Below, piece by piece: positions 20,210 through 43,275 of a DNA stretch of 64,000 nt. Origin of the DNA: Lutibacter oceani (GTDB lineage: Bacteria; Bacteroidota; Bacteroidia; Flavobacteriales; Flavobacteriaceae); contig NZ_QTTQ01000010.1 of NCBI RefSeq assembly GCF_003384935.1, positions 434,001 through 498,000 of the forward strand, in the 5' to 3' direction. Position 1 is the first letter of the stretch; every line of letters starts with the position of its first letter. The notes under the pieces are model-generated. The model was not told the origin of the DNA. It did no database searches and saw nothing but the letters and a program-made list of their open reading frames with translations. The translations under genes and the position numbers were made by a program.

Positions 20210-20668
20210 TTCGTCAGTTCGAGTGGTTTTAACAAGAACTAAGGTTCTTTTTAAAATTGTATCGAGAACCTCCTACTCAAATTTCTTCTTAGCCAAATTG
20301 ACCAAATCATCATAACAACCATTAATTAAAGCCTCTTTTTTAACTCTTGACCATTTTTTTAATTGTTTCTCTTTTTCAATTGCTAAATTTATATCTGTAA
20401 ATTCTGCATAGAAAACCATTGTTACAGGCCTTCTTTTATTGGTATAACAATTTTTATAAAAACCTGATGAATGTTGAAATAGTCTTTTTTCTAAATTACT
20501 TGTAACTCCAGTATAATAGGTGTTATCTGAACATTTTAATATATACACAAAACTCTTTTTCATTTTTGAAAGTTAATAATTTTGTTTTTAATTATCGACT
20601 TTCTTCTCGATACTATTTCCATACGTTACACTTCTGAAAATCACTCGAAGTGACGTACTTGAATCTTC
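20210..20668. repeat. Palindrome-ended element E1 carrying a GIY-YIG gene
   Basis: A 459-bp unit repeated nearly perfectly at 21053-21511 (constant offset 843 bp). The outer inverted ends are TTCGTCAGTTCGAGTG on the left and CACTCGAAGTGACGTAC on the right. An inner inverted pair, TGTATCGAGAAC and CTTCTCGATACT, flanks the gene. No transposase is encoded. Confidence 0.85.
20273..20563 (-). CDS. GIY-YIG nuclease-like protein, copy 1
   Basis: A 96-residue single-domain protein. The motif pair is VYILKCSDNTYYTGV (VYI at 6-8, YTG at 18-20), followed by arginine 27. The predicted catalytic glutamate is 65, in the EKQLKKWSR segment. This is the small UPF0213/YhbQ-like class, whose substrates are poorly known, although the GIY-YIG fold is a DNA-cleavage fold. 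It sits inside a repeat element and differs from copy 2 at only four residues (42, 44, 69, 83). Its presence between two transferase genes of the operon suggests insertion rather than a pathway role. Confidence 0.85.
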   Translation of the reverse strand: MKKSFVYILKCSDNTYYTGVTSNLEKRLFQHSSGFYKNCYTNKRRPVTMVFYAEFTDINLAIEKEKQLKKWSRVKKEALINGCYDDLVNLAKKKFE

Positions 20669-20777
20669 GTCAGTTCGAGTGACCGAGTGCGCGAGGTTGT
20701 ATCGAGAACCCGCACGTAATACTTCTAAATACACTATTTCTCCATTGTATTACAAAACACCACTCACAGTGACGTAC
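20666..20777. repeat. Gene-less palindromic element E2
   Basis: A 112-bp unit with the same outer ends as the GIY-YIG elements but no ORF. Its interior (ACCGAGTGCGCGAGGTTG...) is shared with E4 at 20934-21045, which starts 268 bp away. The right end (CACTCACAGTGACG) has decayed from the consensus. Confidence 0.7.
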
Positions 20778-20784
20778 TTGAATT

Positions 20785-20926
20785 TTCGTCAGTTCGAGTG
20801 GTTTTAACAAGAACCTTAGTTTTTTTTAAAATTGTATCGAGAACCATAAACAAAATTTGATTTACAACTACTTCTCGATACTATTTCCCTCCGTTTCACT
20901 TCTGAAAATCACTCGAAGTGACGTAC
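20785..20926. repeat. Gene-less element E3, deletion-like derivative of the GIY-YIG element
   Basis: A 142-bp unit. Its left third matches the left end of E1 up to the TGTATCGAGAAC inner arm, and its right third matches the right end of E5 from CTTCTCGATACT onward. The nuclease gene is missing and only about 25 bp of unrelated sequence remains between the inner arms. Confidence 0.75.
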
Positions 20927-20933
20927 TTAAATC

Positions 20934-21045
20934 TTCGTCAGTTCGAGTGACCGAGTGCGCGAGGTTGTACCGAGAACCCGCACGTAATACTTCTCGATAC
21001 ACTATTTCTCCATTGCATTACAAAATACCACTCGAAGTGACGTAC
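20934..21045. repeat. Gene-less palindromic element E4
   Basis: A 112-bp near-copy of E2 with better preserved inner (CTTCTCGATACA) and outer (CACTCGAAGTGACG) arms. Like E2 it has no coding capacity. With E1, E2, E3 and E5 it forms an uninterrupted cluster of five elements over 1.3 kb. Confidence 0.75.
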
Positions 21046-21052
21046 TTGAATC

Positions 21053-21511
21053 TTCGTCAGTTCGAGTGGTTTTAAAAAGAACCCTAGTTCTTTTTAAAAT
21101 TGTATCGAGAACCTCCTACTCAAATTTCTTCTTAGCCAAATTGACCAAATCATCATAACCACCATTAATTAAAGCCTCTTTTTTAACTCTTGACCATTTA
21201 TTTAATTGTTTCTCTTTTTCAATTGCTAAATTTATATCTGTAAATTCTGCGTAGAAAACCATTGTGACTGGTCTCTTTTTATAAGTATAACAATTTTTAT
21301 AAAAACCTGATGAATGTTGAAATAGTCTTTTCTCTAAATTACTTGTAACTCCAGTATAATAGGTGTTATCTGAACATTTTAATATATACACAAAACTCTT
21401 TTTCATTTTTGAAAGTTAATAATTTTGTTTTTAATTATTGACTTTCTTCTCGATACTATTTCCCTCCGTTTCACTTCTGAAAATCACTCGAAGTGACGTA
21501 CTTGAATCTTC
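21053..21511. repeat. Palindrome-ended element E5 carrying a GIY-YIG gene
   Basis: Second full-length 459-bp copy of E1, including the nuclease ORF and both inverted-repeat ends. Its right end lies directly against the stop codon of the exostosin-like gene at 21513. Confidence 0.85.
21116..21406 (-). CDS. GIY-YIG nuclease-like protein, copy 2
   Basis: A 96-residue twin of the protein at 20273, differing only by N42Y, R44K, K69N and C83G. The VYI...YTG motif, arginine 27 and glutamate 65 are intact. That both copies remain open with conservative changes suggests either recent duplication or gene conversion, possibly under selection. The same flanking arms surround both genes. It lies upstream of copy 1 in the direction of transcription and 106 nt after the exostosin-like gene. 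A role in movement or repair at the repeat ends is inference only. Confidence 0.85.
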   Translation of the reverse strand: MKKSFVYILKCSDNTYYTGVTSNLEKRLFQHSSGFYKNCYTYKKRPVTMVFYAEFTDINLAIEKEKQLNKWSRVKKEALINGGYDDLVNLAKKKFE

Positions 21512-28777: not shown

Positions 28778-28892
28778 TTCAATTCGAGTTAATTTCGGCC
28801 TTTTTAGGCTTAAAATTAGTATCGAAAATATTTTTTTAAAAATACAAATGTTCTCGATACAATTTTTTATCAAAAATCACTCGAACGGACGG
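28778..28892. repeat. Degenerate solo copy of the GTATCGAGA/CACTCGAA palindrome family
   Basis: TTCAATTCGAGTT at the left, AGTATCGAAAA and TTCTCGATACA as inner arms, and CACTCGAACGGACG at the right. Same nested plan as the GIY-YIG elements, with a decayed left half and no gene. It occupies the upstream region of the asparagine-synthase-like gene. Confidence 0.55.
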
Positions 28893-35694: not shown

Positions 35695-35813
35695 CGTCAA
35701 TTCGAGTGATTTTCAGAAGAAAATTGTATCGAGAATAGAAAAATTAACATTAAAAACTATTCTCGATACATTTTTTCCCTCATTTCATTCCTCAAAAAAT
35801 ACTCGAACTGACG
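35695..35813. repeat. Solo palindromic element of the GIY-YIG-associated family
   Basis: A 119-bp perfect-plan palindrome. CGTCAATTCGAGTG pairs with TACTCGAACTGACG at the ends, and GTATCGAGAATAG pairs with CTATTCTCGATAC inside. There is no gene between the arms. It lies between the GT2 at 34611 and the sulfotransferase at 35853, where it could fold as a long hairpin in RNA. Confidence 0.75.
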
Positions 35814-42387: not shown

Positions 42388-42557
42388 TCAGACGTATTTT
42401 AGTCAGGCGTAAGACGGTTGTTCGTGAGACGGTTGTTCGTGAGACGGTTGTTCGTGAGACGTATTTTCGTGAGACGGTTGTTCGTGAGACGTATTTTCGT
42501 GAGACGGTTGTTCGTGAGACGGTTGTTCGTGAGACGTATTTTCGTGAGACGACTTCT
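42388..42557. repeat. 15-bp minisatellite (left array)
   Basis: Nine clean tandem 15-mers run from 42423 to 42557, alternating CGTGAGACGGTTGTT and CGTGAGACGTATTTT and ending in CGTGAGACGACTTCT. Degenerate copies precede them from 42388. The plus-strand reading frame gives a meaningless [10 protein letters not shown] repeat and is not called as a gene. Confidence 0.9.
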
Positions 42558-42730
42558 CACTATTCACTTCTCACTTCTGACTTCTCACTATTCACTTCTC
42601 ACTATTCACTTCTCACTATTCACTTCTCACTATTCACTTCTCACTTCTCACGTTTGACTTCTCACTATTCACTTCTCACTTCTGACGTTTGACTTCTGAC
42701 GTTTGACTTCTCACTTTTGACTTTTCACGT
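42553..42730. repeat. TTCTCAC/TTCAC simple-repeat tract (left)
   Basis: Irregular repeats of CACTTCTCACTATT, TTCTGAC and GTTTGACTTCTCAC. Their TCTCAC core is the complement of the GTGAGA core of the adjoining 15-mer array. The two blocks meet at a near-palindrome, GTGAGACGACTTCTCAC (42544-42560). The tract runs up to the stop codon of the four-helix-bundle gene. Confidence 0.85.
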
Positions 42731-43072
42731 TTTTCTTAAATAATTTCTAAATCCTAATATTAATCTTTTAACATCGTTTATTAATACTTCAATATTATTA
42801 TTTTTCTCAGTATAATTTAACCTAACTGCAATTAGATATTGAGTTTCTAATTCAGATACAGAACCAAGTGCAATATGAAGAAACTGAACAAATTCTTTAT
42901 CTCCTTTTCTTCCTGCACCTTCTGCAATATTTGAAGGAACTGAAACAGCAGCTCTTCTAATCTGACTTGTTAAACCAAACTTCTCATCATCAGGAAATGA
43001 ACTTGAAAGTTTATAAATTAAAGCAACCAAATCCATACTCTTCTTCCAAACATCTAACTCTTTATGATTCAT
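42725..43072 (-). CDS. Four-helix bundle protein (23S rRNA intervening-sequence/S23 family)
   Basis: A 115-residue all-helical protein matching the four-helix-bundle family also found in 23S rRNA intervening sequences and related to the Avd accessory protein of diversity-generating retroelements. The diagnostic pieces are LDVWKKSMDLV (6-16), FGLTSQIRRAAVSVPSNIAE (32-51), EGAGR and IALGSVSELETQYL (67-80). It lies in the gap between wzm and wzt and is bracketed on both sides by the same composite minisatellite. No reverse transcriptase or rRNA is present nearby. Function unknown; nucleic-acid binding is suggested by the family. Confidence 0.85.
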   Translation of the reverse strand: MNHKELDVWKKSMDLVALIYKLSSSFPDDEKFGLTSQIRRAAVSVPSNIAEGAGRKGDKEFVQFLHIALGSVSELETQYLIAVRLNYTEKNNNIEVLINDVKRLILGFRNYLRKT

Positions 43073-43083
43073 TTTTCTTTTTT

Positions 43084-43275
43084 TTATTCGTGAGATGTAT
43101 TTTAGTGAGACGGTTGTTCGTGAGACGTATTTTCGTGAGAAGACTTCTCACTTCTGACTTCTCACTATTGACTTCTCAATATAGACTTTTCACTATTCAC
43201 TTCTCACTTTTGACGTTTGACGTTTGACTTCTCACTTTTGACTTCTCACTTTTGACGTTTGACTTCTCACGTTTT
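43084..43275. repeat. Second composite minisatellite (right array)
   Basis: Four 15-mers (43089-43148) of the GTGAGACGGTTGTT/GTGAGACGTATTTT type are followed by a TTCTCAC/TTTGACG tract to 43275. They meet at a palindrome with perfect 8-bp arms, GTGAGAAGACTTCTCAC (43135-43151). Block order and orientation match the left array, so the two arrays are direct repeats around the small gene. Confidence 0.88.

Follow-up and report, generated by a model that had tools for sequence, protein, structure and literature searches.

A GIY-YIG nuclease gene between inverted, CGTC-tagged hairpins in Lutibacter oceani: a probable REPtron-like element

The window analysed here, a 64,000-nucleotide stretch of contig NZ_QTTQ01000010.1 of Lutibacter oceani (positions 434,001 to 498,000 of the forward strand; host genome 3.38 Mb), contains a head-to-tail array of five elements (20212-21498) that is flanked by two glycosyltransferase-like genes and that includes two copies of a gene for a small GIY-YIG nuclease. 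An earlier note on this DNA had described the array as a nuclease-plus-palindrome element with non-autonomous relatives, comparable to the repetitive extragenic palindromic (REP) sequences and their REP-associated tyrosine transposases (RAYTs). The features of the array, with element limits counted from CGTCA to TGACG, and of two related hairpin pairs elsewhere in the window are given below.

20212..20655, minus strand: element E1, 444 bp, a GIY-YIG gene bracketed by inverted GTCA hairpins
20273..20563, minus strand: GIY-YIG nuclease gene, copy 1, 96 amino acids, PF01541
20213..20269, plus strand: left hairpin unit of E1, stem GTTC/GAAC, with an apical palindrome
20603..20654, minus strand: right hairpin unit of E1, stem CTTC/GAAG, upstream of the gene start (pattern match C2:454604-454654)
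20656..20667, no strand: 12-bp spacer TACTTGAATCTT, a mark of tandem duplication
20668..20774, no strand: element E2, 107 bp, a hairpin pair without a gene, with a degenerate right arm
20787..20923, no strand: element E3, 137 bp, with ends of the E1/E5 type and no gene, identical to E5 at 120 of 137 positions
20936..21042, no strand: element E4, 107 bp, a hairpin pair without a gene, identical to E2 at 100 of 107 positions
21055..21498, minus strand: element E5, 444 bp, the second GIY-YIG gene bracketed by inverted GTCA hairpins
21116..21406, minus strand: GIY-YIG nuclease gene, copy 2, 96 amino acids, with N42Y, R44K, K69N and C83G relative to copy 1
28778..28892, no strand: dispersed pair without a gene, with degenerate tags TTCA and GTCC; by eye of the two-ended type seen in pairs of genomes G004 and G006
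35695..35813, no strand: dispersed pair without a gene, 119 bp, stems ATTC and GTTC

Much of the anatomy proposed in the earlier note is confirmed: the five head-to-tail elements, two of them with a 96-residue GIY-YIG gene; the four residues by which the coding copies differ (4 of 96, with 424 of 444 positions identical between E1 and E5); the ends of E1 and E5 in E3, which has no gene; and the different filler of E2 and E4, whose loops are unlike those of the other elements. There are indeed two full copies, but the length of 459 bp given for them is corrected to 444 bp, or 456 bp from start to start with the 12-bp spacer included. All elements were said to keep their arms, which holds in general, except that the right arm of E2 is worn (CACTCACAGTGACG, CTTCTAAATAC) and the left inner arm of E4 reads GTACCGAGAA. 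The arms are palindromic, as claimed, and this description can be refined, because every arm forms a separate asymmetric hairpin, with an unpaired CGTCA tag, a 4-bp stem, a GAG/CGA step and a variable apical stem, and because the two ends of an element are unlike, with stem GTTC/GAAC on the left and CTTC/GAAG on the right. Along an arm, GTCA is followed by the first strand of the 4-bp stem and GAG, then by a stretch that varies and is often a palindrome, and lastly by CGA and the bases that complete the stem; the window units have an internal loop, and 23-39 nt separate their GAG from CGA. Chance palindromes were rejected as an explanation: the window holds 13 copies of TCACTCGAAGTGACG when up to 3 mismatches are allowed (0.27 expected) and 14 of GTATCGAGAA with up to 1 mismatch (1.98 expected). 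Both counts include the dispersed elements at 28778-28892 and 35695-35813, and none of 100 shuffles reaches either count.

Apart from the two GIY-YIG genes, the array contains a single reading frame of at least 60 amino acids, one of 72 residues that runs across repeats, and this leaves no room there for a transposase, as the earlier note had maintained. The spacer TACTTGAATCTT, with at most one change, is present between all elements and again after E5, and Tandem Repeats Finder reports a 268-bp period in the array. Because the 12-bp spacer is nearly identical throughout and this period is found, the array seems to have grown mainly by tandem duplication; that is, it looks like the product of unequal tandem duplication rather than of five insertions.

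GIY-YIG enzymes are DNA nucleases, which hydrolyse DNA and have no strand-transfer step of their own. The sole Pfam match of the encoded proteins is PF01541 (GIY-YIG), with 63.8 bits for copy 1 and 59.5 bits for copy 2 against a cut-off of 22.6, and structures are available for the UPF0213 relatives 1zg2 and 1ywl. Among 99 sequences of 80-125 amino acids, residues Y17, G19, T21, R27, H31 and K66 show no variation, and Y7 and E65 almost none, which is consistent with an active GIY-YIG nuclease. The ratio of nonsynonymous to synonymous substitution rates (dN/dS) is 0.09-0.15 for copy 1 against four relatives and 0.09-0.18 over all pairs including the window copies, with dS near saturation for the more distant pairs, and 0.12, from 11 changes, for the gene of E1 against that of E5; these values indicate that the nuclease gene is under purifying selection. 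Several familiar identities were considered and rejected. A homing endonuclease does not fit a protein of 96 amino acids that has a single Pfam domain, no separate DNA-binding domain and an intergenic location. A virus or phage element was set aside since six peptide patterns match no viral contig and the 24 phage records are all below 60% identity, and a plasmid-borne element since the 40 plasmid records are all below 60% identity as well.

The association between gene and hairpin extends far beyond this window. A test that makes no use of the hairpin motif was applied to 77 of 80 named loci of nuclease relatives, three with short flanks having been dropped: in 42 of the 77 loci the two flanks of the gene share an exact inverted match of 11 nt or longer, as do those of 6 of 563 shifted placements. 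In a second comparison, nuclease genes were placed by tblastn in 107 of 111 loci, and 98 loci (named and genus loci, with duplicates removed) that had 200 nt on both sides were compared with 188 placements shifted by 900 bp. A tagged hairpin in any orientation is present on both sides in 56 of these 98 loci against 3 of 188 shifted placements; an inward-pointing unit is present on both sides in 36 of 98 against 2 of 188, and a tagged hairpin on at least one side in 86 of 98 against 42 of 188.

The pattern of tag and stem was framed while reading the flanks of the relatives, the same loci that were later scored. Applied to 81 regions (the 80 loci plus the window, 97 kb) and to a distance of up to 600 bp from the gene, it gives 253 GTCAn4GAG sites. 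In 199 of these, CGA and the exact complement of the stem follow within 90 nt, compared with a mean of 36.5 and a maximum of 55 for 500 draws of shuffled stems; regions at a distance of 1.4-2.6 kb (169 kb) contain 31 GTCAn4GAG sites, 19 of them perfectly paired. Twenty stem types are represented, at least one perfect unit is present in 62 of the 81 regions, and the stem is perfect in 146 of 169 distinct units. When hairpins of the form X4-GAG-...-CGA-X4' are sought with no tag specified, 195 of 238 turn out to be preceded by GTCA; on their 3' side there is a weak preference for T, and the tag is on one side only. The apical stem also covaries (for example, positions 13 and 41 of the 54-mer are paired in 18 of 19 cases against a shuffled maximum of 14). 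Unlike stems, which mark the two ends of the window elements, are common in adjacent units of the fetched loci: they occur in 31 of 41 tail-to-tail pairs (shuffle mean 22.1, maximum 31, 1000 shuffles) and in 30 of 35 head-to-head pairs (mean 19.5, maximum 27). The genome of L. oceani itself has 10 matches to the unit pattern. A separate clade (L066, L081, L085, L089 and L090) has hairpins of the form GTCA-TGCT/CCCT-GAACTTGTTTC-AGCA/AGGG, in which a fully paired GAA/TTC takes the place of the GA step.

The type of stem follows the nuclease lineage, as judged from a sequence tree. When each of 88 labelled nucleases was given the stem type of its nearest hairpin, 41 changes were needed on the tree, compared with a mean of 64.2 and a minimum of 58 in 300 shuffled draws; the tree (100 sequences, 100 columns) was made by a quick method with 41 of its 97 inner branches unresolved, and it excludes five loci that duplicate others, their genome being in two collections, and two whose length was unsuitable. 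A sister clade formed by L003, L150, L153, L154, L156 and L157, which in this label set is unlabelled or, for L157, mislabelled, has GGCT-GAG-CGGAG(T/C)-CGA-AGCC hairpins in which mostly GGT or GGC replaces the GTCA tag; a switch of tag in this clade is possible. The third nuclease copy of the L. oceani genome belongs to the same sister clade.

Genome-wide surveys covered 38 genomes of the genus, including that of L. oceani, and 199 genomes from 198 genera of the family. A close nuclease was defined in the genus by at least 130 bits, a cut set after a gap from 139 to 108 bits had been seen, and in the family by an E-value of at most 1e-30. In the genus, units of the window type are present in 25 of 38 genomes and a reversed control pattern in 0 of 38; they occur in all 12 genomes with a close nuclease (mean 12.0) and in 13 of the 26 others (mean 2.5; Fisher p=0.0026). 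In the family, 93 of 199 genomes contain units, with a maximum of 88 per genome, and 3 of 199 match the reversed control; here 37 of 39 genomes with a close nuclease have units (mean 14.9), compared with 56 of the 160 without one (mean 3.5; Fisher p=2e-12).

Individual sites were compared as well. In L. oceani a unit pair lies between two ATP-binding cassette (ABC) transporter genes of an operon, and the first of these genes has 32 matches in 31 genomes of the genus, from which 30 loci were fetched and 29 junctions, including that of L. oceani, were usable (L190 was dropped because no valid downstream gene could be placed). The gap between the two genes is -4 to 17 bp in 12 of the 29 genomes, 99-266 bp (projected) with GTCA-tagged hairpins in 10, and filled by other sequence in 7. 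By a permissive scan, shuffles of the 17 long junctions give a mean of 0.83 and a maximum of 5 hairpin-bearing junctions (300 shuffles) against the 10 observed. The hairpins at this junction are of several types (GTTC/CTTC, GTTC with a GCGC loop, ACCT and TTCT), so that the space after a stop codon looks like a kind of place that is colonised again and again. In L191 (G004:C7), a TTCT-type hairpin apparently lies inside the first codons of the second ABC gene, past the pair that follows the stop codon of the first.

The array locus itself can be followed in genomes G006 and G037, which have a close copy of the neighbouring glycosyltransferase and both carry arrays; the orthologous locus of G006 has one GIY-YIG gene, and that of G037 (L101, C5, upstream of the glycosyltransferase) has a long run of GTCA units and no GIY-YIG match. 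Genomes G016 and G033 have a distant copy of the glycosyltransferase with other genes upstream and no array, and none of the other 37 genus members yielded an orthologous array locus that is cleanly empty. At another site in the L. oceani genome (G000:C5:47168-48040, equivalent to L018 1500-2372), between an acetyltransferase-like gene and a phosphofructokinase-like gene (here pfkA), an 873-bp element is bounded by GTCA hairpins that both have the GTTC stem. This element contains a gene pair that we take to be ParD/ParE-like, and its interior has, by eye, an inverted repeat of its own of the GTTGGCAAC type; because of these internal repeats, a later insertion into an element without a gene is as likely as true cargo. 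In G004, pfkA and the acetyltransferase gene (homology by eye) are about 74 bp apart and the element is absent, with junctions that could not be placed to the base. Elsewhere in the window, 42408-42732 and 43087-43274 are tandem arrays of 14-15 bp units (CGTGAGACGGTTGTT; ACTTCTCACTTTTC).

Relatives outside the Bacteroidota bring in a known class of repeats, the CGTC REPs. Of 40 plasmid-collection records with a relative of the protein, 15 were inspected, and 6 of these have CGTC-tagged hairpins on both sides of the gene: those of Azospirillum lipoferum, two Sphingobium, Sinorhizobium meliloti, a Rhizobium and Neisseria gonorrhoeae. On plasmid AZO_p3 of A. lipoferum 4B (L243 1495-1788), the GIY-YIG gene and pairs of CGTC hairpins are situated between sufB and sufC of an iron-sulfur cluster operon. 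Photobacterium has tagged hairpins on one side, and Sphingomonas parapaucimobilis has, by eye, related untagged hairpins. Across the 15 stretches there are 38 tagged hairpins, compared with 4 for the reversed tag. All 7 proteins with tagged hairpins contain, by eye, the motif EKx[LI]KxW, which is absent from E. coli YhbQ and from the Cupriavidus protein and reads EYQIKQW in Salinivibrio; the Planktothrix protein has the motif without repeats, the Methylobacterium frame is broken at the motif, and this reading covers 12 of the 15 proteins, YhbQ but not YazA being among them. The N. gonorrhoeae relative, 40.8% identical over 78% of the query, shares the motif as EKQLKKW, and within 700 bp of its gene are 12 hairpins of the dRS3 type.

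This N. gonorrhoeae relative is presumably Ssn, and Ssn of Neisseria would be the closest known enzyme to the window nuclease. Chenal et al. 2025 reportedly describe Ssn as a GIY-YIG nuclease with many homologues that cuts site-specifically at a repeated single-stranded site, NTS. It would resemble the window protein, with its conserved catalytic-type residues, in being a small stand-alone GIY-YIG protein, and the window-type genes are surrounded by copies of their putative target repeat, which is reportedly a trait of Ssn too; features that may set the window-type system apart are a cassette with the gene inside an inverted pair, derivatives without a gene, two unlike ends and covarying stems.

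The dRS3 repeat has the pattern ATTCCC(N8)GGGAAT (PMC3898611) and is the same as CGTC-1 in PMC3733652. According to that source, CGTC REPs are intergenic, repeated palindromes with a (C/T)GTC tag at one end that form inverted dimers, and the hairpins studied here are alike in all these respects, with an unpaired tag at one end and repeats that include the 41 tail-to-tail and 35 head-to-head pairs of the fetched loci. The published families have an 8-9 bp stem, a 4-5 nt loop and a CCA tail, and the window units fit none of the four; the Sphingobium hairpins also depart from the description, with AC at the stem base and no CCA tail. CGTC REPs were reported without a dedicated transposase (Di Nocera et al. 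2013, PMC3733652): its authors found no case of CGTC units flanking a gene for a tyrosine transposase and just a few links, held to be fortuitous, to other transposases, and they list A. lipoferum and S. meliloti among the CGTC species. The term GIY-YIG is absent from its main text, and the literature search gave no title linking GIY-YIG with REPs.

The resemblance to GTAG REP/RAYT systems (REPtrons) and to the REP doublets that form hairpins (REPINs), as described in PMC3733652, consists of a tetranucleotide tag, an imperfect hairpin, inverted pairs, an enzyme gene flanked by repeats and copies without the gene. The differences are the tag, GTAG in RAYT REPtrons and GTCA here, and the enzyme, an HUH tyrosine transposase in the former and a GIY-YIG protein here. 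No HUH tyrosine transposase gene lies between the repeats of the array; RAYTs elsewhere in the genome were not searched. The UPF0213 family (YhbQ and YazA; 1zg2 and 1ywl) is alike in domain and size, whereas no tagged hairpin lies within 700 bp of E. coli yhbQ or B. subtilis yazA, and the passages of PMC1564403 consulted contain no mention of UPF0213, YhbQ or palindromes. The CGTC REPs, the RAYT REPtrons and Ssn are already known. What appears to be additional, some of which the Ssn work may already include, is the REPtron layout with two-ended dimers that lack a gene, a rule of tag plus covarying stem that holds across several phyla, the correspondence between stem type and nuclease lineage, and a connection with the enzyme-less CGTC REPs.

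Considered together, these observations make it probable that the array is a REPtron-like element, in which a stand-alone GIY-YIG nuclease is encoded between inverted hairpins whose folded single-stranded form it most likely recognises, and in which the dimers without a gene are non-autonomous. By analogy, E2, E3, E4 and the pairs at 28778-28892 and 35695-35813 are such non-autonomous dimers, comparable to REPINs. Recognition of the hairpin by the nuclease is supported because the stem covaries and because stem type is inherited together with nuclease lineage; the features recognised would most likely be the (C/T)GTCA tag, the covarying stem and the GAG/CGA step. In the mechanism that we envisage, the hairpin would be exposed as single-stranded DNA on the lagging strand, in DNA taken up or in a repair gap, and the nuclease, by analogy with Ssn and from its conserved residues, would nick at or near the tag. 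Since GIY-YIG enzymes lack a strand-transfer step, movement would have to use host repair or uptake: break repair, recombination or uptake might copy the hairpin-bounded DNA elsewhere, and the five-element array would then have grown by unequal recombination between repeats. The earlier note fares well at this level. Its nuclease-plus-palindrome element with non-autonomous relatives is supported by the locus, genome and junction tests, and its comparison with REP/RAYT systems proves closer than claimed, given that the CGTC tag found on these hairpins is that of a REP superfamily already in the literature. Neither of the two findings that it named as refuting came out: the close GIY-YIG clade is not commonly without the arms, since 37 of 39 family genomes have units, and occurrence beyond a single local event is borne out by the counts in genus and family and by an operon junction that may be filled or empty. 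As for empty sites with precise junctions, the former are found, at the operon junction in 12 of 29 genomes; base-precise junctions are not.

A number of points weigh against this reading. Nicking, binding and spread are inferred from sequence, and neither a base-precise junction nor a target duplication, which with a transposase would mark an insertion sequence or a miniature inverted-repeat transposable element (MITE), could be defined at the sites compared. The 80 named loci, kept from 129 relatives, come from one query and are not a random sample, and the genome counts and Fisher tests are uncorrected for phylogeny. The one-side association is weaker than it appears, since the permissive match is also found in those 42 of 188 shifted placements, and the covariation, tag-free and two-side tests depend on a pattern framed from the same loci; the motif-free test, the family survey and the inspection of plasmid records are more independent of it. 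The scan detects no tagged hairpin within 400 bp of L003, L036, L050, L079, L080, L150, L153, L154, L156 and L161; inspection by eye shows the GGT- or GGC-flanked hairpins of the sister clade in L003, L150, L153, L154, L156 and L157, a hairpin with the 5' flank GTTGA in L036, CGTC hairpins to either side of L080 and an imperfect hairpin in L050, and L079 has none by scan or by eye. In 7 of the 15 plasmid-collection records, including those of E. coli yhbQ and B. subtilis yazA, there are no such hairpins within 700 bp. Two of the 39 family genomes with a close nuclease (G065 and G179) have no pattern unit, and 27 of the 160 without one hold at least 5 units, one of them 88. When 16 unit-rich genomes without a close nuclease (among them G007 of the genus) were searched at 1e-8, some relative was found in 13 and none in 3, and in several of these genomes the relatives are near other hairpins, have internal stop codons or are fragments. 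Genomes G188 (88 units) and G214 (52 units) have no nuclease at E-values up to 1e-30 and best relatives that are 54% and 58% identical, that of the 88-unit genome adjoining GTTC hairpins. Unit-rich genomes of this kind could be explained if the enzyme had been lost while the repeats persisted, or if a more distant relative served them.

The nuclease could instead serve the host or act in transformation, with the hairpins as its sites, the repeats having spread by recombination and uptake with nothing selfish about the element. The purifying selection on the gene, the lack of strand transfer in GIY-YIG enzymes and the reported use of NTS by Ssn in Neisseria would all suit such an enzyme, as would the position of the Neisseria gene among repeats of the dRS3 type, which are CGTC-1 in PMC3733652. 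We nevertheless regard it as somewhat unlikely, given that the gene sits between inverted units and has been duplicated with them, that it is patchy (39 of 199 family genomes at 1e-30) and that pairs without a gene occupy other sites. That the five elements are merely a local tandem-duplication array with no present mobility accords with the recurrence of the near-identical 12-bp spacer, with the 268-bp period and with the orthologous loci, one gene in G006 and many units with no GIY-YIG match in G037; it leaves unexplained the copies at other sites, the operon junction that is occupied in some genomes and empty in others, and the association across phyla, and while compatible with a REPtron-like origin it is improbable as the full explanation.

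Movement of the hairpins by a transposase acting in trans, a RAYT or another, with the GIY-YIG gene as a passenger, is left open for CGTC REPs by PMC3733652, whose authors found no CGTC-flanked tyrosine transposase gene and few, fortuitous links to others. Both stem type and copy number track the GIY-YIG gene, the former its tree and the latter its presence, so that this explanation seems quite doubtful, the presence of RAYTs not having been searched. There is, finally, the idea that the hairpins act as RNA, as terminators or mRNA stabilisers that are cut or bound in that form; units do lie between operon genes and after stop codons, but the tag is one-sided, the stem type tracks the nuclease lineage and GIY-YIG enzymes are DNA nucleases, and we consider this very improbable. 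Under the preferred reading, that of a REPtron-like element, the GIY-YIG enzyme is a strong candidate, on sequence grounds, for the partner of CGTC REPs. A wider proposal, plausible and as yet short of probable, is that CGTC REPs in general are spread by a stand-alone GIY-YIG lineage that would cut the tagged hairpin as single-stranded DNA, each enzyme co-evolving with its own stem, through hydrolytic cutting and host repair and with no transposase; this would be a second REP system of independent evolutionary origin, convergent with that of the RAYTs.

The analysis provides a candidate enzyme for repeats that had been reported without one, together with named genomes that hold nuclease and repeat as a pair. 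The rule of tag plus stem predicts which nuclease matches which repeat, and the question becomes testable with one protein and a few oligonucleotides. If the proposal is true, the dRS3 arrays of Neisseria would join the same system, and the nucleases may form a set that differs in hairpin specificity.

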